Source: a virus. Taken from it: DNA of 42,907 nucleotides. Positions 993 to 30,672 of the stretch are shown here, piece after piece; the stretch's first letter is position 1, and every line of letters begins with the position of its first letter. The notes beneath the pieces are model-generated. The model made no database searches. It had not been told where the DNA came from and was given only the letters and a program-made list of their open reading frames with translations. The stretch covers positions 64,001 through 106,907 of the IMG/VR virus record IMGVR_UViG_3300011013_000001; one strand, written 5' to 3'. A program made the position numbers and the translations under genes.

Positions 993-3719
993 ATGATACG
1001 CCTGACGAAGGGAATCTTCAACAGAAAGCGCAATCATCCTCCAAGCCAGCACACCCTACCTATGCACGATGAATCGTTAGACGAAACAGGAGGCTGGACA
1101 GGTGTCAAGCCGGTGCAACAATGGCATTCCGGTAGCAAACCTGACGTAGTCCGAATAATGAGTGGTAAGCCTGACAAAGACAGGCGAATGTGGACGGGGG
1201 TCGGGGCAGACGAAAAAGCCAAAACCGATGCAAGAAGATGGGGGCGCGGTATGACACAAGGCGGACCGGGTGGCTATCTCGTAGGAGTCAGAGGCAACGA
1301 ACCTCAAGGAGAAATGGCACACGGGCCTGTAGACACCGGAGAAACCGAAGAGACAGGTATGCGAGCGATACAAGGCGAAAACATAGACCCACGTTCGCTT
1401 GTCTTTCAGTCTCTAGCAGCACCGCCCGCTCAGGTGATGAGCGAAGCGCCGCACTCCGAAGAAGAGAAGGGGCAAGCGCGCGAACGCCTGAAACAAATTG
1501 AGCGAGAATTAGCAGAAGGAGGAGAGTTGGACGAAGACGAGTTCAATGAATTGAACACCATCCTGCAATCAAAACCCGAACCCGTAGGACCGCAATACCG
1601 CTATGATGATGAAGCGAACGAGTGGGTTCTCGTCAAACAATATGGACAAGAGCCATCTTTTGAGACTCGGCAGGTTGAGGAAGCGCCACCGGAGACAGAT
1701 GATTCGCTTGATGTAGGGACAGGCGTGTCTATGGAAGAGAATGACCAGTGCTGTGAAGAAGCGAGAACCGCATGGATTGAGTATTTGACCCAATATAGTG
1801 ACACTGTTCCGAGTATCGGTTATTCGTGGTTTATGGAAGATGCTAACCAGAATTGCGAGGAACTGAGGGCGTCCATTGAAGTATGGAACGATAACAACTG
1901 GGGCACAGATATCGCCCCAACCTTAGATGAAATACCGCCCAAAATACTCCAAGAGTGGGACGCCTGTGCCGGACAGCAGTTCTCCGGTGATACATTCACA
2001 GCAGGCCACGGCAGCGCGGGCGTTCTCGTATCCAAGCACGCCACGTCACCGAACGCCCTACGACACAAACGAGCGTACCAAGCGGAATACCAAAAGAAGC
2101 CGGACCGTATCAAGTACCGTGAGGAGTTAATCAGAGAACGCCGTAAGCGCGGCGTCTATGGCAAAGGCGGCAAGGATATGTCGCACACCAAACAGCACAC
2201 CCTCGTAGCAGAAGACCCTCACGCCAACCGTGCTCGCCACTTCAAAGGACGCGGCACGCTCAAATCGGTCGGAGTAAGAAAATCAGAGAACTCCGACAAC
2301 TATGCCGACTTCCAAGAGGTGCTACAGAACCTACCAAAGAAAGACCGATATGACTTGGACGATGTACCCGAAGACGAGATGCGGGCGGCTATGGATGCGA
2401 TACGGAGCAAAAACCCTAACATCAATTGGAAAAGACCGCCACTGTGGGTCTTTGATGCCTTGGTTGAAGCGTTGGGGCCAGCACAGCAGGCACGGCTAGA
2501 AGAGAAAAATAGAATAGCGGAACAGGCGAGACAGGTACGGGAAGCGCAGAAAAAGACTCATGATGACCTCGTGAACATGCTCGCGGGTACCACTGAAACT
2601 CATCCCAGCCCTACCGTGCAAGCAGCCTTGAGCGAAATGCGCGACCATATCCACAATACAACGCAGCCCCATACAGGCCCATGCAGGATATGCTCGGGGA
2701 ACGAATGGGGACCAGAACCGGGAACAACGGATTGGAACCCCCGTGAACACTGCACCGCTTGTGGCTACGGCCGTCCCCTCTACCACGAAGGCTTCGCTGA
2801 AGAGATACTGCAAAGACAAGACCCCGACTACTTACATCCTCACTTGTACGATATGCCCGAAGACGCTCAGAACTACCAAGCGATTATGCAGATGGCCGCC
2901 GACAAGATGCAGAAATCGGTCGGAGTAAGAAAGTCAGACAATCCTACCGACTCCCTCGTTGAAGGTGAACCCGAGTGGCTCTATGACGGTCATAAACCAA
3001 GCCGGTCATTCTATGATGGGAACTTTGATGTAGTCAATGTCGGTGAGCGGGGGATATGGAATTACGCAGACCAAATCAATCGTAAAAGGCTCCAAGCAAT
3101 TCCGTGGGAACCCAGCATGACTCACGAAGAAAAAGAGGAAGCGGATAGGCAACACGAAGAAAACACAGAAAAGATATTCGCGGAGGCCCCCGGTAATATG
3201 TTCGGCCGAGTCGCGGCTCACGAATACGGTCACGCAGTCACTGCTGATGAGGTCAATGATTTTTTGAGGGAGAAAGGTATTGTCGGTGAATACAGCACAA
3301 CCCCAAAGGCTACCGCCGCTACTGAACATGCGGCCTATACAGCACAATTCCCCGAGTCCGGCTATCTTGCTACGAAAAACATGCTCCAACAAGTCATGAG
3401 TCAAGTCACAGACTCATTCAGACGAAAACAAAAGAAAGAGAGAGAAGCCGCTGGGATGGGTAGTGGCTTTGATTGGAACACAGATAGATATACTGAAGCC
3501 AAAGAGCGAGTGATGGCCGAACTACCCGACCACCTCCGCTCGTTATATGCGGTGGTTCAGCGAGCGGGGAGAGCAGGGGCAACCCTCAAAGAAAAGGAAC
3601 AGGCGTATCGTGAAATGATGGGTGCGAGAGCGCGCGACTCAATGTTGCGGCGACAGACTCTTACTTCGGGCCAATGGCCGGGCAGAATAGCCGTGGCTCG
3701 CAGAAAGCACCAACAGTGA
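993..3719 (+). CDS. Large multidomain protein with HEYGH zinc-metallopeptidase motif
   Basis: A 908-aa frame. Around residue 743 it has AAHEYGHAVT, the HExxH zinc-binding and catalytic signature of metallopeptidases; a Glu in TEHAAYT about 35 residues on could be the third ligand. Near residues 350-420 is a basic segment (RHKRAYQAEYQKKPDR, then YGKGGKDMSHTK) of a kind I associate with phage proteins. The phrase KSVGVRK followed by an acidic S/D-E/D-N stretch occurs twice, before about residue 430 and about residue 650. Two Cys-rich patches (CRICSGNEWG and CTACGYG, about 570-600) may bind zinc. No Shine-Dalgarno precedes 993, so the true start may lie downstream, for example ATG 1062. The function is unknown; a virion-associated or processing protease is possible. 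The HExxH match is the only strong functional clue. Confidence 0.7.
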   Translation: MIRLTKGIFNRKRNHPPSQHTLPMHDESLDETGGWTGVKPVQQWHSGSKPDVVRIMSGKPDKDRRMWTGVGADEKAKTDARRWGRGMTQGGPGGYLVGVRGNEPQGEMAHGPVDTGETEETGMRAIQGENIDPRSLVFQSLAAPPAQVMSEAPHSEEEKGQARERLKQIERELAEGGELDEDEFNELNTILQSKPEPVGPQYRYDDEANEWVLVKQYGQEPSFETRQVEEAPPETDDSLDVGTGVSMEENDQCCEEARTAWIEYLTQYSDTVPSIGYSWFMEDANQNCEELRASIEVWNDNNWGTDIAPTLDEIPPKILQEWDACAGQQFSGDTFTAGHGSAGVLVSKHATSPNALRHKRAYQAEYQKKPDRIKYREELIRERRKRGVYGKGGKDMSHTKQHTLVAEDPHANRARHFKGRGTLKSVGVRKSENSDNYADFQEVLQNLPKKDRYDLDDVPEDEMRAAMDAIRSKNPNINWKRPPLWVFDALVEALGPAQQARLEEKNRIAEQARQVREAQKKTHDDLVNMLAGTTETHPSPTVQAALSEMRDHIHNTTQPHTGPCRICSGNEWGPEPGTTDWNPREHCTACGYGRPLYHEGFAEEILQRQDPDYLHPHLYDMPEDAQNYQAIMQMAADKMQKSVGVRKSDNPTDSLVEGEPEWLYDGHKPSRSFYDGNFDVVNVGERGIWNYADQINRKRLQAIPWEPSMTHEEKEEADRQHEENTEKIFAEAPGNMFGRVAAHEYGHAVTADEVNDFLREKGIVGEYSTTPKATAATEHAAYTAQFPESGYLATKNMLQQVMSQVTDSFRRKQKKEREAAGMGSGFDWNTDRYTEAKERVMAELPDHLRSLYAVVQRAGRAGATLKEKEQAYREMMGARARDSMLRRQTLTSGQWPGRIAVARRKHQQ

Positions 3720-3730
3720 AGGTAAATCGT

Positions 3731-3760
3731 GTGTTATATTTTTTTTACATAAAATAACAC
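3731..3760 (+). terminator. Probable terminator after the metallopeptidase-like gene
   Basis: GTGTTAT (3731-3737) and ATAACAC (3754-3760) form an inverted repeat around a run of eight T (3739-3746), 12 bp after the stop codon. Archaeal transcription usually stops at T tracts, so this is a reasonable 3' end for the 993-3719 transcript. Confidence 0.5.
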
Positions 3761-3805: not shown

Positions 3806-4086
3806 GGTAAATGAGCGCTCGTAGAGCGCTCCTCCGGCTAAGGGGGGAGCGTGGTAAATGCCCTGTGGCGGAGCGCGGTAAATGGCAAGCGCGCTCGGCC
3901 ACGCTCAGGCACGCTCTCAGCCCTGCATACAGGCGCGCTCATACGCTCACGGTAAGGCCAACGTGCTCGCTCATACACCCGTGTAGCGCACGCACTACGC
4001 ACGCACTGCGCAGGCGCTTTGTGCACGGGTTCGTATACTACGAGCGCTCTAACGAGCGCTCTCGTTCCCTCACCATATGGTTGGTT
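3806..4086. repeat. Non-coding, GC-rich repeat region with paired GAGCGCTC palindromes
   Basis: The gap 3720-4284 holds no credible gene. GAGCGCTC, itself a palindrome, occurs at 3813-3820, 3824-3831, 4042-4049 and 4054-4061. The two pairs are close to reverse complements of each other, so the region could fold back on itself. Inside are three GGTAAATG copies (3806-3813, 3853-3860, 3877-3884), two preceded by GAGCGYG, and an inverted pair ACCCGTG (3977-3983) / CACGGGT (4024-4030). It ends in TATGGTTGGTT (4076-4086), an 11-mer found again after the palindrome at 5285-5467. This may be a replication origin, partition site or structured RNA; the sequence alone does not decide. Confidence 0.6.
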
Positions 4087-4140
4087 CTTCAACCGTTTTA
4101 CTTGTCCCGCGCGCCGATGTGAATGGAATAGAGCGGTTCA

Positions 4141-4215
4141 TTTTTGGCTCTAAGTAATCATTTAATTCAGTCCAAAAAGCGAGATTTTGGTCGGGTTGGT
4201 TATAAAGCAACCACA
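4141..4215 (+). promoter_or_regulatory. Promoter P1 with TATA box and class A upstream boxes
   Basis: TATAAAGCAACCACAGCA starts at 4201 and matches the other four main promoters. Upstream are TTTTGGCTC (4142-4150) and GAGATTTTGG (4181-4190), both shared only with the promoter at 17028. A start site about 25 nt after the TATA box would give a leader of several tens of bases before the ATG at 4285. Confidence 0.8.
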
Positions 4216-4284
4216 GCAAACAGGAGTCAGCCCCAACGGTGAAACAAACGAAAGCCGGAGCGGGTGAAAGGAGAAAAAGATAAT

Positions 4285-5097
4285 ATGAGCATGAATGAAG
4301 AACAGTTAGGACAGATACGACAGGCGTATGAGCCGGTCGTCAGACAGTGCGTCAGCATAAGCGAGGCGAATGGTAAAACCATTACCTTGAACGGTGTAGC
4401 GCCCGCTAAAACGGGCGCGTCATGGACGCACATAGAAGCAGCAACGGGAGCGAGCGAGCACAGCATAACGAGCGTGTGCAAGGCCTTGAGAGTATGGGTC
4501 GGGCAAACTGACACACAGACGAACGGCTTTAACGCTGAAAAGGTAGCGAGCACCTTCAGGAATTGTGCGTTTTGGGGCGACCTATTCGCTGATGTAATAC
4601 CGACACCGGCGGGAGCGGCACCTATGCCGACACCACAACCGGCACCACAACCGACACCACAACCGGCACCAACGACTCAAGGGGTAAACGATTTAACACC
4701 AATTGAGACGGTCGAAATTGAAACACATAAAGGAGAATGGTTTGCTCGCATGAAAAACGATACCAAAGCATACAAAACTTGGAGTGCGGCTATGAACGGA
4801 GCGACTAACTCGCTTCTAACTAACGTGCTAAGATTCCCTCAAGGTGACGAAGGAAAATCTGTGCGAGCGTCCGTGAAAGAACACTTAGTAGCGATGAACG
4901 AAGACAATATGCCGTTCTTAACCGAACTGCATAGGAACTTAGTCAGCACCACAGCGAGCGGAGTTGGAGCAGTAACCGCCTTCATCCGTGACCATGTATT
5001 AACAGTTGGAGCCATTTACGGAGCAACTGAGAACACAGGTTCAACTCGTAAACAAATGTTTGACGCATCAGCGTTTACAGCATTCAACCGAAACTGA
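4285..5097 (+). CDS. Single-gene unit: candidate HTH protein with Pro-rich linker
   Basis: 270 aa starting MSMNEEQLGQ. I chose ATG 4285 over the in-frame GTG at 4264 because GGAG at 4270-4273 lies at the right distance. Residues about 40-65 (ASWTHIEAATGASEHSITSV) read like a helix-turn-helix. Residues about 105-130 are a Pro/Thr/Gln/Ala linker (TPQPAPQPTPQPAP). The C-terminal half has no recognisable family. It is the only gene in the window flanked on both sides by long repeat-rich non-coding DNA, has its own promoter and terminator, and is not in an operon. That setting would suit a replication initiator, partition protein or transcription regulator acting on the adjacent repeats, but this is inference. 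Confidence 0.8.
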   Translation: MSMNEEQLGQIRQAYEPVVRQCVSISEANGKTITLNGVAPAKTGASWTHIEAATGASEHSITSVCKALRVWVGQTDTQTNGFNAEKVASTFRNCAFWGDLFADVIPTPAGAAPMPTPQPAPQPTPQPAPTTQGVNDLTPIETVEIETHKGEWFARMKNDTKAYKTWSAAMNGATNSLLTNVLRFPQGDEGKSVRASVKEHLVAMNEDNMPFLTELHRNLVSTTASGVGAVTAFIRDHVLTVGAIYGATENTGSTRKQMFDASAFTAFNRN

Positions 5098-5140
5098 GTG
5101 CGCTTGATAACGAGCAACTAACACAAAGTAATGCGAACAC

Positions 5141-5189
5141 GGCCTTCATGGGGTCGCCTCCGGGCGGCTTCATGGGGGCCATTTTTTTT
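5141..5189 (+). terminator. Hairpin and T8 terminator after the HTH gene
   Basis: GTCGCC, loop TCCG, GGCGGC (5153-5168) forms a 6-bp stem with one G-T pair, enclosed by GGCC (5141-5144) and GGCC (5177-5180), and is followed by eight T (5182-5189). A direct repeat CTTCATGGGG flanks the stem. It lies 44 bp after the stop at 5097. Confidence 0.6.
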
Positions 5190-5284
5190 ATTGCGTGGGC
5201 GTGTGTGCCTACGCTATCCTATTCAACGGACGTGCTGTTCAATCCTCCTTGTTCTTTTTGGCACGTCCCATTATCAGCGTTTGA

Positions 5285-5467
5285 GGTTAGGCTACGCTAC
5301 GCGTGCCGATTCGTGCGCCTTGTTGCTTCGTATCTTATACGGCGAAGCCCTTATCCCATTCAATCATCATGCGTCCTTATCGCTATCGCTTGACGCACGA
5401 TTCAATCATTCAATTGCTTCGCCTTGATACGAAGCGTAGCGCACTACTCTCGCAGCGTAGCCTAACC
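5285..5467. repeat. Long nested palindrome (five concentric stems)
   Basis: Five inverted pairs share nearly one centre near 5380: 5285-5298/5454-5467 (14 bp, GGTTAGGCTACGCT); 5313-5318/5439-5444 (GTGCGC); 5325-5334/5426-5435 (GCTTCGTATC); 5341-5348/5416-5423 (GGCGAAGC); 5370-5375/5392-5397 (TGCGTC). The apical loop is about 16 nt. ATTCAATCAT is repeated directly at 5358-5367 and 5400-5409. TATGGTTGGTT follows at 5469-5479. Short frames cross it but none looks coding. It could be a cruciform at an origin or a structured RNA of about 183 nt. From 5480 to 5700 I see nothing further. Confidence 0.75.
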
Positions 5468-5703
5468 GTATGGTTGGTTGTAATTTTCAAATTGGTGGCA
5501 CGTGCGCATGACGACAAACCCACCCGCCAACGTTCCCCCTTCTCTCTCGGCTCCTTGTTTCCATCAATCCTTGCAGGGTGTAACCTCGCGCGCCCGTTAG
5601 TGTATCACAGTATCATTACGACCCCGTAGTGGTTGAGCGTGCATGGCGATTCGTTCGTCCCGCTCCTCGCATTATCTATAGACCGTGACACTGCGCCGAA
5701 AAC

Positions 5704-5894
5704 GTTTCCAATGTTTCCAATGTTTCCAACGTTATTATTAGAATTGGAAAGATAAAAGCGCGCACTTGTGTTTATGTTTCTTGTTTATTGTATATCTCTT
5801 TATTATATATTATACAATATATAGGAATAAAACGAGAAACAATAATCATTCCAATTACAAGAATAATAGTGGAAACATTGGAAACATTGGAACA
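5704..5894. repeat. Inverted clusters of 9-bp iterons around an AT-rich core
   Basis: GTTTCCAAT is repeated in tandem at 5704-5712, 5713-5721 and (GTTTCCAAC) 5722-5730. The reverse complement, ATTGGAAAC, occurs at 5877-5885 with variants at 5868-5876 and 5886-5894. Between the clusters lies AT-rich DNA (about 5765-5860), including TTATATATTATACAATATATA. Iterons facing each other across an AT-rich core is a common origin layout. The right cluster also ends only 15 bp before the promoter at 5910, so it may be an operator. A 24-bp piece (5861-5884) recurs exactly at 25480-25503. Confidence 0.75.
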
Positions 5895-5935
5895 AGGAGC
5901 GGCCGGCTTCTTTATAAAGCAACCACCACAAAACT
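5895..5935 (+). promoter_or_regulatory. Promoter P2 (class B) of the small-gene operon
   Basis: CGGCTTCTTTATAAAGCAAC lies with its TATA core CTTTATAAAGCAACCA at 5910-5925. It is followed by CCACAAAACTGCG, similar to the stretch after the other promoters. The iteron cluster ends just upstream. The first gene starts at 5982, leaving a leader of about 45 nt. Confidence 0.85.
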
Positions 5936-11196: not shown

Positions 11197-12669
11197 ATGT
11201 TTAGAATATACAAATGGCAAGCGCAAGCGTTTGAGAATTGGAAGAGAGCGGACTACCTTCGGTCAAGTCGTTGGGATATGAGCGAGGGTCGCGTGATTGA
11301 GAACAGGAAGCAGGGCGGCACGGTCAGCGTGACTACGGGTGGGGGCAAGACCTTGCTCGGATTCATGGCGGCGTTTGATTGGTTGGATAACGGCGGCGAA
11401 CAGGTTGTCGTAGTCGTGCCGAGCAAGCGGTTGTTGTTTCAATGGCGTGACGAGTTTGAGGAATACGGTGAGTCGCCTGTGTGTTGGGGCGGGGGCTACG
11501 GTCGCCCGTCTGTCGCAGGAGCGAGAGTTGTAATCGGAATCGTCAACAGCATGAGAGCATGGACTGACGGGAACGGCGCACGACTGCTAATCGTTGACGA
11601 GTGTCACCGAATCGGTAGCGAGAAGAACGCCGTGATACCCAGCGTGATAGCGCACGATGCGGTGCTTGGTCTGTCAGCCACACCTGAGCGTAGTGATGGC
11701 CGAGACGTGACCACGCTCACCGGCCCGATTTGTTTCAAGTTAGACTATCGCGAAGCGTTGAGCGAGGGAATCATCCCTGCGTTCACGCTGAATGCTGTCG
11801 CTGTTCCGCTGAACGGGTTTGAGTCGGGTGAATACTACACGCTGACTAAGAAGATTGCCGTCATCCACGACCAACTCGGGGCGGAGTTCGGAGCGGGTGC
11901 TAACTTCTTTGCGTTGCCGCACGACAGTAGCAACCTCGTGCCGATTTTCAAAGCGTTGTGCAACAAGCGCAAACGTTTAGTGAACAACAGTAGAGGGCGC
12001 AAGGATTTTCTTGACACTTTGCTTGCGAAGCACGCCAACGATAAGGTGTTGCTGTTCCACGAAAGCGTCAGTGATTTGAACGCGTTGTTCTCTCACTACA
12101 AGGACGAGTATGACCCTGCGATGTATCATTATCAGATGGACGACAACGAAGCGCAGTTTGACCGATGGAAGCGAGGCGACACGAACCTTTTGTTGTCGTG
12201 CCGAGCGCTGAACGAAGGGATGAACGCACCGGAGACCGATGTAGCCATCATGCTTAGCGGCACGAACGGTGTCCGGTCACGGATTCAGACGCTAGGTCGC
12301 GCACTACGCGGCGAGAACGCTGTCATCTATCTTGTTTACACGCCTAACACAACTGACGTGAAAGGCTTGGCGGGTCTTGTCGGTCGTGGTGGTGTGCCTA
12401 AGAGTTTGGTAAGTCATTACGATTGGACGGGAGGTAATATGCTGAGTGCGCCTGAGCCTCAGTGGTTTGCTCTCGCTCCTGAACCCACCGAAGAGGGTAG
12501 AGCAGACACGCCTGAACACCTGCGCCTGTTCCCTCGTTCACCCTTACCCACGATTGAAGCGGCGCTCGGCAGACAGAAGAGCGTGGTTATTCAGTCGGTT
12601 GATATACCGATACCGATACCGATACCGATACCGATACCGATACCGAAGGAGGTGATGCACAATGAGTAG
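11197..12669 (+). CDS. SF2 DNA helicase, XPB/Rad25-like
   Basis: 490 aa. Motifs in order: Q-motif-like YKWQAQAFENW (5-15), Walker A TTGGGKT (46-52), DECH box (134-137), SATPERSDG motif III (160-168), and in the second RecA domain ALNEGMNAPETDVAI and QTLGRALRG (motif VI). This is the layout of XPB/UvrB-type SF2 helicases, which open DNA using ATP. The short domain between motif III and the second lobe carries a thumb-like insert. The C-terminus is odd: seven Ile-Pro units encoded by a CCGATA repeat, then KEVMHNE. It heads the P3 operon beside a second, SNF2-type helicase. Confidence 0.9.
   Translation: MFRIYKWQAQAFENWKRADYLRSSRWDMSEGRVIENRKQGGTVSVTTGGGKTLLGFMAAFDWLDNGGEQVVVVVPSKRLLFQWRDEFEEYGESPVCWGGGYGRPSVAGARVVIGIVNSMRAWTDGNGARLLIVDECHRIGSEKNAVIPSVIAHDAVLGLSATPERSDGRDVTTLTGPICFKLDYREALSEGIIPAFTLNAVAVPLNGFESGEYYTLTKKIAVIHDQLGAEFGAGANFFALPHDSSNLVPIFKALCNKRKRLVNNSRGRKDFLDTLLAKHANDKVLLFHESVSDLNALFSHYKDEYDPAMYHYQMDDNEAQFDRWKRGDTNLLLSCRALNEGMNAPETDVAIMLSGTNGVRSRIQTLGRALRGENAVIYLVYTPNTTDVKGLAGLVGRGGVPKSLVSHYDWTGGNMLSAPEPQWFALAPEPTEEGRADTPEHLRLFPRSPLPTIEAALGRQKSVVIQSVDIPIPIPIPIPIPIPKEVMHNE
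12607..12642 (+). repeat. CCGATA microsatellite encoding an Ile-Pro tail
   Basis: Six perfect tandem copies of CCGATA, in frame, give alternating Ile and Pro near the helicase C-terminus. It runs straight into GAAGGAGGTGATG, the ribosome site of the next gene. Copy number could vary between genomes without a frameshift because the unit is six bases. Confidence 0.95.
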
Positions 12670-19356: not shown

Positions 19357-20177
19357 GTGATGATATTCCCATACCTGTACCTAAAGACTACGGGTTCACC
19401 ATAGGACAGCAGACTCAGGTGAGCCACGGTTCGCTTGAAGTTGGGTTTGATACAGGGGCGAACGAGTATTGGTATCGGTTGGAGAGCGCTGCTCTTCGCC
19501 GCTACCTTGACTTCGTTGCAGTATGTAGCGAAGAAGTGTGGTTGTATTTCACTGAATCAGGAATCTTCACTAGAGCGGTTGACAATTCATTCGTTGCGAT
19601 GGCGGAGGTAAGTTTCCACGGTACCGATACTACTGATGAAGTCATAGGAGTAGTAGGCGTTGACGTGAAAGATTTGGTAAATTGTATTGACAAAGACGAG
19701 AAGCACATCACTCTCGTACCGCAACACGAGTTCAGTGAACTGTTGGTGGTCAACGATAACTGTATGACCACTCTCAAAGCGTATGACGAAGAGCCGGTTA
19801 CACCGAAGACACCTGAACTTGACCTGACTACTTTCACTACGATTGGCAGTATTCAGTTTGATAAAGCATGCAAGCGCATGAAGAGCGTGGGTGACGATTA
19901 CGTAATCCGTACAACTGAAGGTGGACGCGTGAAATTGATATGCAAATCAGGTAGCATAACGCGTGAGTATAACCTGTCGGATACATATGCAGGCGACCCT
20001 GCTCGTGCTCAGTATAGTGGTCAGTACCTGCTAGGGTTGTGCAAAGCAATACCGACGACCAAGAATGCTGCTATTGATTTACTGATAGAGTGGGAAGACG
20101 ATAAACCGTTGATGGTCACAGGTAAAGACGACCTCGTGCGATGGCAATACATGCTCGCTCCAAGGGAGGAGTATTAA
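19353..20177 (+). CDS. PCNA sliding clamp
   Basis: 274 aa. The segment LRRYLDFVAVCSEEVWLYFT followed by SGIFTRAVDNSFVAMAEV matches the first domain of archaeal PCNA (the RFTEEGL-RAVDPANVAM pattern). Later YSGQYLLGLCKAIP matches the YSLDYL-KAI strand-helix, and the end WQYMLAPREEY fits the LAPR end strand. The clamp rings DNA and tethers PolB and other enzymes. Unlike typical archaeal PCNA (about 245 aa) it has an N-terminal extension of about 25 residues containing IPIPVPKDYGF. A second clamp candidate is at 30669. Confidence 0.85.
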   Translation: MSDDIPIPVPKDYGFTIGQQTQVSHGSLEVGFDTGANEYWYRLESAALRRYLDFVAVCSEEVWLYFTESGIFTRAVDNSFVAMAEVSFHGTDTTDEVIGVVGVDVKDLVNCIDKDEKHITLVPQHEFSELLVVNDNCMTTLKAYDEEPVTPKTPELDLTTFTTIGSIQFDKACKRMKSVGDDYVIRTTEGGRVKLICKSGSITREYNLSDTYAGDPARAQYSGQYLLGLCKAIPTTKNAAIDLLIEWEDDKPLMVTGKDDLVRWQYMLAPREEY

Positions 20178-25107: not shown

Positions 25108-25453
25108 CGATGACTTCTATCTTGCATGGCTTGCACGCGAAGCACGATTCACCTGCGTTATCAGATTCGCTCCCGAGAGACCTCTCGGTTACAGACCCCT
25201 GCGTCACGTGGTAGTATCTATCCGGCCTGAACCTGAATTACAGGCGTGGCTCAAAACCAAAGGAATAGAAAACAGGTTTGTTGGTGACGCCGCAGGTATC
25301 AGAAAAATCCTGCACCTCCTTGCTCCTGTCTCTGATTTTGTTAAGGATAAAAAAGGCATGGAAAAAATAACAAAGATGGTAGTCAAACCCCTACGGGGTT
25401 TGAAGCATGAGGAGTTGTTCCAATCATTCCGACGTTTCTTGTATTATTCTTAG
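25100..25453 (+). CDS. Candidate degenerate LAGLIDADG-fold protein
   Basis: 117 aa from ATG 25100; GTG 25079 is an alternative. YLAWLAREARFTCVI near residue 7, followed by HVVVSIRPEPELQAWLK and a C-terminal helix, recalls one LAGLIDADG half domain, although the acidic residue of the motif is missing. LAGLIDADG proteins are homing nucleases or DNA binders. Overlaps the end of the ligase-like gene. The codons for KPLRG lie in a perfect hairpin (25384-25402). The family call is weak. Confidence 0.5.
   Translation: MRSDDFYLAWLAREARFTCVIRFAPERPLGYRPLRHVVVSIRPEPELQAWLKTKGIENRFVGDAAGIRKILHLLAPVSDFVKDKKGMEKITKMVVKPLRGLKHEELFQSFRRFLYYS
25384..25402 (+). promoter_or_regulatory. Perfect hairpin inside the 3' end of a gene
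   Basis: CAAACCCC (25384-25391) and GGGGTTTG (25395-25402) pair fully around TAC, about 50 bp before the stop codon and 150 bp before promoter P5. There is no T tract close behind. It may slow transcription or mark the 3' end of the P4 transcript. Confidence 0.5.
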
Positions 25454-25479
25454 AATTAGAATTGTTATTATTGTTATAG

Positions 25480-25504
25480 GAATAATAGTGGAAACATTGG
25501 AAAG
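25480..25504. repeat. Second iteron site, exact 24-bp copy of 5861-5884
   Basis: AGTGGAAAC (25487-25495) and ATTGGAAAG (25496-25504) are two iterons in the same orientation as the right cluster near 5880. The match to 5861-5884 covers 24 bases without mismatch. AT-rich DNA with ATTATTGTTATAGG lies just before. It stands about 50 bp upstream of the P5 TATA box. Confidence 0.85.
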
Positions 25505-25540
25505 ATAATAATTCTTCAAAAAATCTATCAAATGGTAACA

Positions 25541-25580
25541 AATATGGTCGGCCTCTTTATAAAGCAACTGTGGCAAATGT
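25541..25580 (+). promoter_or_regulatory. Promoter P5 (class B) of the replication operon
   Basis: GGTCGGCCTCTTTATAAAGC starts at 25546, with CTTTATAAAGCAACTG at 25554-25569. The ATG at 25587 lies only about 30 nt after the TATA box, so the transcript is probably leaderless or nearly so. Confidence 0.85.
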
Positions 25581-29195: not shown

Positions 29196-29332
29196 GTGAT
29201 AGACTTACTTGCTACAACGTGAACTGTCGTGTGAACGAATACTTCCGTATGGATATGCAAGACCGGGAAGAGACCGCATGGTCGCATTTGGATTCTAACC
29301 AATGCCCCGGTTGCTCGGAGGTGGGTGAATGA
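29192..29332 (+). CDS. Zinc-binding mini-protein, 46 aa
   Basis: MSDRLTCYNVNCRVNEYFRM and then CPGCSEVGE: two Cys pairs, spaced about 28 residues. The ATG overlaps the previous stop and its stop overlaps the next start. Confidence 0.7.
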   Translation: MSDRLTCYNVNCRVNEYFRMDMQDREETAWSHLDSNQCPGCSEVGE

Positions 29333-30672
29333 GTGAAGGTATTGAATACCCTGCCTTACCCGATGAAGTTCTGTCAACTCGTACTAACATGAATATCAGT
29401 AGTATCAAATCGGCTATGGAGCGCGGACAACTCATTATCAATGAGGCGTATCAACGCGAGGCAGTCCAACGCTCTAAACCTGACTTCAGGACCCGGCTTA
29501 TAGAATCGGTGTTGATGAACTTCCCAATCCCACCTATCACTATACTCAAAACGCCGAGCGGTCAGCCTGATGAGATTCTTGACGGGCAGCAACGTGTGAC
29601 TACAGTCTTAGACTTCATGAAAATTGACGGCTCGTTCTCTATCAAGGGCGAAGCGCTAATGAAATTAGATTATGATATATTCAGTAAAAAGAAGTTCAAG
29701 GATTTACCCGAAGAGTATCAATGGCGCATAGAAAATTACAAGATAGGTGTAGACGAAGTCAGGGAGACTGACGATTACCCTGCTGAGGATATTTATACAA
29801 TCATGAATACTAATCGTATTGATATGAAACACGAAGAACTAATGAAATCTCGTTACTGTCGTGAGGACGCTTATCAGTTGCTCGCTGAATATAGCGAGAG
29901 TGAGCCATGGTTATCTTCGGTAGCGGCTAAGAGAAACAGTCGTTGTAAAGCGACAGGGTTGGCATTCAAGGCACTGATGTCTATTGATTATGGCAACGCT
30001 CTACCGTCAGGTTCCCAAGGTAAGTGTTTGGAGTGCTATATGGAGAGAGTTCTACGAGGGAATAATCCCACGCCCGGTAATGTATTGAGAGCGAAACTAC
30101 AATCAACCTTGAGGTTGCTCAAATCTGTTTTCGGTGACACTCCTTCTATGAAAATAGATTATGTAATCCCGTCCAATACTAAACTGTACAGTATTAACTT
30201 TTACATACTGTTCTATTGCATCCGTAGGGCTAAAACTGAATACAGTTCTCAAACAATTGAGTCTAACGCTGGCGCTATTAGAGAAGGCTTCTATGCTTTT
30301 GTTAACGAACACCGTTACGATTATTTGGAAAACCGTGCCCTTTCAGGTAAGGCTATATCAAAACGCAACTTGCACTGTTGGGACAACTTCTTTCACCCGT
30401 TATTGGAATTATTGACAGAAGACGAGCCTACCCGTGATGAGCGTAGGATTTTTACACCCACTCAGCGAGTTGTGATTATCGGTAAGGCGTTGGAAGAGGA
30501 AGGTGGCATATTCTGTCACTACTGTAAAAACGAAATTATGTCCGTTGATTCAGTGGAGATAGACCACATAAAACCGTGGTCGGAAGGCGGTAAAACCGTT
30601 ATAGAGAACGGAGCAGTGATTCATTCATCGTGCAACAAAGAGCGACATCATGCAAGAGGTGAGGAAGAATGA
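29329..30672 (+). CDS. DUF262 (GmrSD-like) protein with C-terminal HNH nuclease
   Basis: 447 aa. NEAYQREAVQRSK and EILDGQQRVTTVLDF (DGQQR at 85-89) are the ParB-like DUF262 signature. At the C-terminus CHYCKN, then EIDHIKPWSEGGKTVIENGA and SCNKERH form a complete HNH nuclease with zinc-binding Cys. DUF262-HNH proteins occur in type IV restriction (GmrSD) and other defence systems and cut modified or foreign DNA using nucleotide hydrolysis. Here it lies in the replication operon, so it could attack host or rival DNA or act in viral DNA processing. Confidence 0.85.
   Translation: MSEGIEYPALPDEVLSTRTNMNISSIKSAMERGQLIINEAYQREAVQRSKPDFRTRLIESVLMNFPIPPITILKTPSGQPDEILDGQQRVTTVLDFMKIDGSFSIKGEALMKLDYDIFSKKKFKDLPEEYQWRIENYKIGVDEVRETDDYPAEDIYTIMNTNRIDMKHEELMKSRYCREDAYQLLAEYSESEPWLSSVAAKRNSRCKATGLAFKALMSIDYGNALPSGSQGKCLECYMERVLRGNNPTPGNVLRAKLQSTLRLLKSVFGDTPSMKIDYVIPSNTKLYSINFYILFYCIRRAKTEYSSQTIESNAGAIREGFYAFVNEHRYDYLENRALSGKAISKRNLHCWDNFFHPLLELLTEDEPTRDERRIFTPTQRVVIIGKALEEEGGIFCHYCKNEIMSVDSVEIDHIKPWSEGGKTVIENGAVIHSSCNKERHHARGEEE

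Follow-up and report, generated by a model that had tools for sequence, protein, structure and literature searches.

The surface ocean abounds in magroviruses, members of the realm that also includes the herpesviruses. To our knowledge no magrovirus has been cultured, so that the start of their replication can be approached from sequence only. In the iteron origins of plasmids and phages, head-to-tail units adjoin an AT-rich stretch. Archaeal chromosomal origins, for example oriC1 of Sulfolobus, use Orc1/Cdc6 and contain origin repeats (ORBs) inverted around an AT-rich DUE (PMC12141716); the ORB repeat reads TCCA[CG]T[TG]GAAA[TC][GA]AAGGGGT (PMC4164010). The origins oriS and oriL of herpes simplex virus are served by the origin-binding protein UL9, an SF2 helicase initiator (PMC12543377). 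Magrovirales are tailed viruses of marine Poseidoniales with ~90-110 kb of dsDNA that encode PolB, a PCNA-like protein, RFC and a chaperonin, and transcribe their replication and structural modules in opposite directions (PMC10768690, PMC12999244). An origin is not described in these two papers or in PMC10160649 (the 2017 founding magrovirus paper lies outside this scope). Here, we describe a composite locus that is real, conserved and apparently new to the literature. Its sequence makes it rather probable that the locus is an origin region, in which an element that we call C would be the iteron-flanked unwinding site.

The stretch of DNA analyzed, hereafter the window, comprises bases 64,001-106,907 of the IMG/VR record IMGVR_UViG_3300011013_000001, which is the final 42.9 kb of a record of 106,907 bp; positions are those of the window unless the record is named. 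The first 123 bases of the record are identical to its last 123, which means that it either was assembled in circular form or has redundant termini. Encoded in the window are a family-B DNA polymerase (PolB), an RFC-type AAA clamp loader, a PCNA-like protein, a Cpn60 chaperonin and two SF2 helicases (ResIII/DEAD and SNF2), while the gene for the large terminase (TerL) lies outside it, ~16 kb from the locus. Genes run leftward below ~65.0 kb of the record and rightward above, and the locus sits between these divergent blocks, with the early (replication) genes following element C on the same strand and the SF2 helicase genes (at 11197 and 12961) shortly downstream of it. The genome length, the identical ends, RFC and TerL, together with the opposed replication and structural modules, the PolB replisome and Cpn60 that descriptions of Magrovirales share (PMC10768690, PMC12999244, PMC10160649), indicate that the source virus matches the description of a magrovirus-like tailed virus. 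No named magrovirus was present among the phage-collection matches listed, and chaperonin searches, meant for a comparison with the origin of the host, did not find a Poseidoniales host genome.

Table 1. Features of the composite locus and its second copy (window positions).
Feature	Position	Strand	Relatives or source
T-tract, left edge of element A	3740..3747	+	poly-T tracts at same edge in relatives
Element A, GC-rich repeat array: 3x GGTAAATG, 4x GAGCGCTC	3806..4065	+	
CTCCGGCTAAG, conserved core of element A	3832..3842	+	pattern scan of 47 records
Palindromic motif site 1, CCATATGGTTGG (consensus CCRTAYGGNTRG)	4073..4084	+	
Early-type archaeal promoter of gene X, GTTATAAAGCAACCAC	4199..4214	+	
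Gene X, 270 aa, place conserved, sequence not	4285..5097	+	
Element B, nested 183-bp hairpin	5285..5467	+	hairpins and terminator-like T-runs in that place in relatives
Palindromic motif site 2, CCGTATGGTTGG	5466..5477	+	
Element C, AT-rich core between inverted 9-bp iterons	5701..5892	.	
Left iterons, three head-to-tail units TTTCCAATG/TTTCCAATG/TTTCCAACG	5705..5731	+	
AT core, 17% GC, lowest-GC 70-mer of the record	5777..5846	.	
Right iterons, inverted units CATTGGAAA/CATTGGAAC	5868..5892	-	
Early-type promoter of first early operon, TTTATAAAGCAACCAC	5911..5926	+	
Element C2, further, degenerate copy of C, preceding the RFC gene	25417..25505	.	

The repeats on which the original prediction was built (GAGCGCTC, GGTAAATG, the 183-bp nested palindrome, the inverted 9-bp iterons and the AT core, which could be located) all exist, and most of them occur nowhere else in the full record (Table 1). 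Four of the 12 GAGCGCTC sites in the 106.9 kb fall in element A (3813, 3824, 4042, and 4054), as do three copies of GGTAAATG (3806, 3853, and 3877), of which one further copy exists elsewhere in the record. It had also been noticed that TATGGTTGGTT follows both the GC-rich repeats and the palindrome, and the copies at 4076 (after A) and 5469 (after B) are indeed the sole two in the record, even when one mismatch is allowed. The consensus CCRTAYGGNTRG likewise occurs in the record at 4073 and 5466 only. Element C combines tandem repeats with an AT-rich region, three 9-bp units standing to the left and two to the right. The iterons lie within 48-nt arms (5706-5753 and 5845-5892) that are 85% complementary and make element C the top inverted repeat of the record, with a score of 32.6 vs no more than 17.8 among 60 simulated genomes; its single-strand DNA fold has a z of -9.2. 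Six TTTCCAATG-type units are found within 220 bp at C, and the second-best cluster holds two. These properties make C a probable initiator-binding and unwinding site.

Relatives' loci were retrieved through PolB, which gave 47 loci including that of the virus itself; PolB identity to this virus is 57% for G016, 52% for G001 and 44-46% for G010, G011 and G012. The loci L010 and L011 were rejected as relatives, since at 99.98% identity they are the same virus population. The shared order consists of a poly-T edge, an element A carrying CTCCGSCTAA, CCRTAYGGNTRG, a promoter, gene X, element B, a second CCRTAYGGNTRG, an AT-rich core and the early genes. This layout is common to at least nine other virus records, either fully or up to the limits of their contigs: it is in one piece in G016, L118, L121, L134, and L135, interrupted by contig ends in G001, G010, and G011, and partial in G015 and in G012, which covers B to C only. 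Independent test loci were fetched by two neighboring helicase-type genes and scanned for motifs afterwards, and the four that extend across the region (L118, L121, L134, and L135) all fit the layout. Each has exactly two CCRTAYGGNTRG, 1.18-1.48 kb apart, with an AT-rich core ~200 bp past the second that is the lowest-GC 70-mer in three of the four and ties for lowest in L121. The distance from site 2 to the AT core is about 180-310 bp, and among the 70-mers of each record the core ranks first for low GC in G016 and G012, second in G011 and third in G001. Genome-wide, CCRTAYGGNTRG is confined to the two expected places in G001 and in G011, and G012 has it at the single place that its contig covers. 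In G010 one of the two places has it and the other differs by one change; in G016 two of its three places are the expected ones. Contigs not covering the locus lack it. The more distant relatives L124-L127 lack CCRTAYGGNTRG, and the layout is therefore confined to a subset of the group. The contigs of G001, G010, G011, G012, and G015 end within the A-X-B region, as if assembly were hindered or the populations variable.

Within this fixed order the sequences themselves change. The core CTCCGGCTAAG has a single match, every time inside element A, in 5 of the 47 records (G000, G001, G010, G015, and G016), and the reversed control pattern has none in the 47; variants are CTCCGCCTAAG in G011 and L121 and CTCCGGCTAA in L134 and L135. 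The repeat unit of element A varies by lineage, being GGTAAATG here, GCGTAAC in G010 and G011 and TGCGGAAAG in G016, and so do the iterons of C, which are TTTCCAATG here and of GTTGTCCGA type in the G010 group. A string of 20 nt, TCTATAGACCGTGACACTGC, is shared without mismatch by the B-C spacer of this virus (5675-5694) and element A of the distant relative L118 (~3301-3322), and the first 11 bases of the string recur at 19,988 of the record. Taken singly, the inverted arms of C in the relatives do not rise above background, as those of this virus alone do, and inverted symmetry was rejected as a general signature of C. Conservation of the repeats in relatives had been named beforehand as the test that could overturn the original prediction, and the locus withstood it: layout and two short motifs are kept between viruses with ~45-57% identical PolB, even though the iteron sequences are not.

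Gene X shows the same combination of fixed place and changing sequence. Positional counterparts are present in G016, G001, G010, G011, L118, L121, L134, and L135, and they fall into groups without detectable similarity between them; homology across lineages was rejected after a profile comparison (E 0.14, probability 0.4%). The helix-turn-helix that the original prediction had seen in the 4285 protein was not borne out, as Pfam gives no match to this protein at E<=1 and PHROG marginal matches only, and no DNA-binding domain is recognizable in the gene X of this virus. Its fold model is uninformative (pLDDT 39.6), and a better gene X model (pLDDT 54.8) has no PDB match at E<=0.001. From the sequences compared we infer that a lineage-wise change of A units, iterons and gene X is what would be expected of a co-evolving protein-DNA recognition system. 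The promoter motif TATAAAGCAAC has five copies in the record, all on the + strand and all in the early half (4201, 5913, 11149, 17031, and 25558), and TATATAAAGCAAC is its counterpart in the G010 group, with 3-10 copies per record. It is probably the early promoter of these viruses.

Compared with the known systems, the locus resembles archaeal Orc1/Cdc6 origins (PMC12141716) in having inverted repeats around an AT-rich core that adjoins replication genes. It differs in that its iterons depart from the ORB consensus, their sequence is lineage-dependent and the element is duplicated, and it has in addition the paired CCRTAYGGNTRG palindromes and the GC-rich array. No ORB was found in the window with up to three mismatches, no orc1/cdc6 among the window proteins scanned, and no match to the Orc1/Cdc6 lid or MCM in five viruses, for which the Cdc6_lid control was leaky (over the cut-off in 3 of 14 genomes). 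Because Orc1/Cdc6, MCM and ORB matches are lacking in these scans, the locus is not a canonical archaeal origin. The likeness to plasmid and phage iteron origins lies in the head-to-tail 9-bp units by an AT-rich stretch; here, however, two inverted blocks surround the core and no Rep protein was recognized. With oriS and oriL of herpes simplex virus (PMC12543377) the locus shares inverted sites around an AT-rich spacer and the occurrence of more than one copy per genome. UL9 is an SF2 helicase, and the SF2 helicases encoded shortly after C here may be compared with it by way of analogy.

An origin is the most likely function since layout and two short motifs are kept across divergent viruses, and this part of the original prediction, which had left the choice between origin and partition locus, can probably stand. 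The GC-skew check that it had proposed places the cumulative minimum at 65,066 of the record, near the locus, but is not independent evidence. Codon position 1 carries the skew, and position 3 and four-fold sites show almost none or an inconsistent one, so we rejected it as coding-driven, marking the change of gene direction. As it follows gene direction, GC skew cannot decide on an origin.

Contrary to the earlier impression that no other part of the window is alike, element C2 is a degenerate iteron/AT copy of C, the similarity between the two being reached by none of 1000 shuffles. A homologous second copy of C exists in all five viruses tested; it lies upstream of RFC in this virus, G001 and G016, and G010 and G011 carry it in their late region, where G015 has the same element. 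In the G010 group it is the second copy, an element homologous to their C, that has the clearest inverted 9-bp iterons. Two origins, or an origin and a promoter under one initiator, would both fit these copies. Both C and C2 have genes downstream and promoters nearby, which would also suit a role in transcription alone, and the main rival explanation, which we hold to be rather unlikely, is a hub of transcriptional control where early and late genes part. Transcription would then be terminated or attenuated at A and B, a regulator, perhaps X, would use the palindromic pair as its operator, and the first early and RFC operons would be switched on by C and C2 as operators or AT-rich promoter elements. 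Such a role would agree with the position between divergent gene blocks, with the T-runs that end the B-type hairpins of relatives in a terminator-like manner, with TATAAAGCAAC after both C and C2 (the promoter of this type that follows C2 lies at 25556) and with the second copies at RFC. However, the second copies of G010, G011, and G015 are not at RFC, so that the regulated gene would differ among viruses, and a 48-nt-arm palindrome around a genome-minimum GC core goes beyond what accompanies the other early promoters of the record.

It is quite improbable that the locus serves DNA packaging (pac) or marks a genome end, with A as a terminase-binding repeat array. Although A is built of repeats that have a conserved core and lies next to the late genes, and several contigs of relatives end inside the locus, the record is continuous through it and has its 123-bp identical ends elsewhere, the large terminase gene is distant, packaging needs neither an AT core nor iterons, and related magrovirus genomes assemble as circles (PMC10768690, PMC12999244). 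Structured non-coding RNAs from A and/or B, with C independent of them, are very improbable: the folds of A and B are better than those of shuffled sequence (z -4.5 for A; -76.5 kcal/mol and z -5.4 for the RNA of B), but Rfam gave no credible match and covariation among relatives is weak and inconsistent, and A and B were rejected as conserved RNAs. A partition or segregation locus, with centromere-like repeats and a binding protein, is extremely improbable in spite of the repeats around a small gene and the paired palindromes that bracket X, because magroviruses are described as lytic and lacking an integrase (PMC10768690, PMC12999244) and Pfam links gene X to no partition family.

If the locus is an origin, a virus-encoded initiator would bind the iterons of C and melt the AT core, in the manner of Orc1 on the ORBs of archaea (PMC12141716) and of UL9 on herpes simplex oriS (PMC12543377), and a helicase together with the viral PolB, PCNA-like protein and RFC would be loaded there. 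This initiator might be the product of gene X or a downstream SF2 helicase. The paired CCRTAYGGNTRG sites would probably bind a dimeric protein that sets the activity of the origin and/or the transcription of X, and C2 could act as a second origin or as an initiator-controlled promoter of the RFC operon. More tentatively, magrovirus genomes may possess two homologous iteron/AT origins, the main one under a composite module (the CTCCGSCTAA array and the CCRTAYGGNTRG pair around a fast-evolving gene), with a virus-encoded initiator unrelated to Orc1/Cdc6 and perhaps an SF2 helicase as in herpesviruses. A conserved and duplicated origin candidate with defined motifs offers a target for read-depth peaks in metagenomes and for pulling out the initiator, and new magrovirus genomes could be oriented by it. 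Were the initiator something other than Orc1/Cdc6, these viruses would possess their own kind of archaeal replication start.

Two genes of the window may be mentioned in addition. In this virus, element A is separated from the divergent late gene by a 908-aa gene (993-3719), and a stretch of ~80 residues of the protein encoded there (PHROG 6437) is found at other positions in relatives. Inside the replication block, the gene at 29329-30669 encodes GmrSD_N and HNH nuclease domains.
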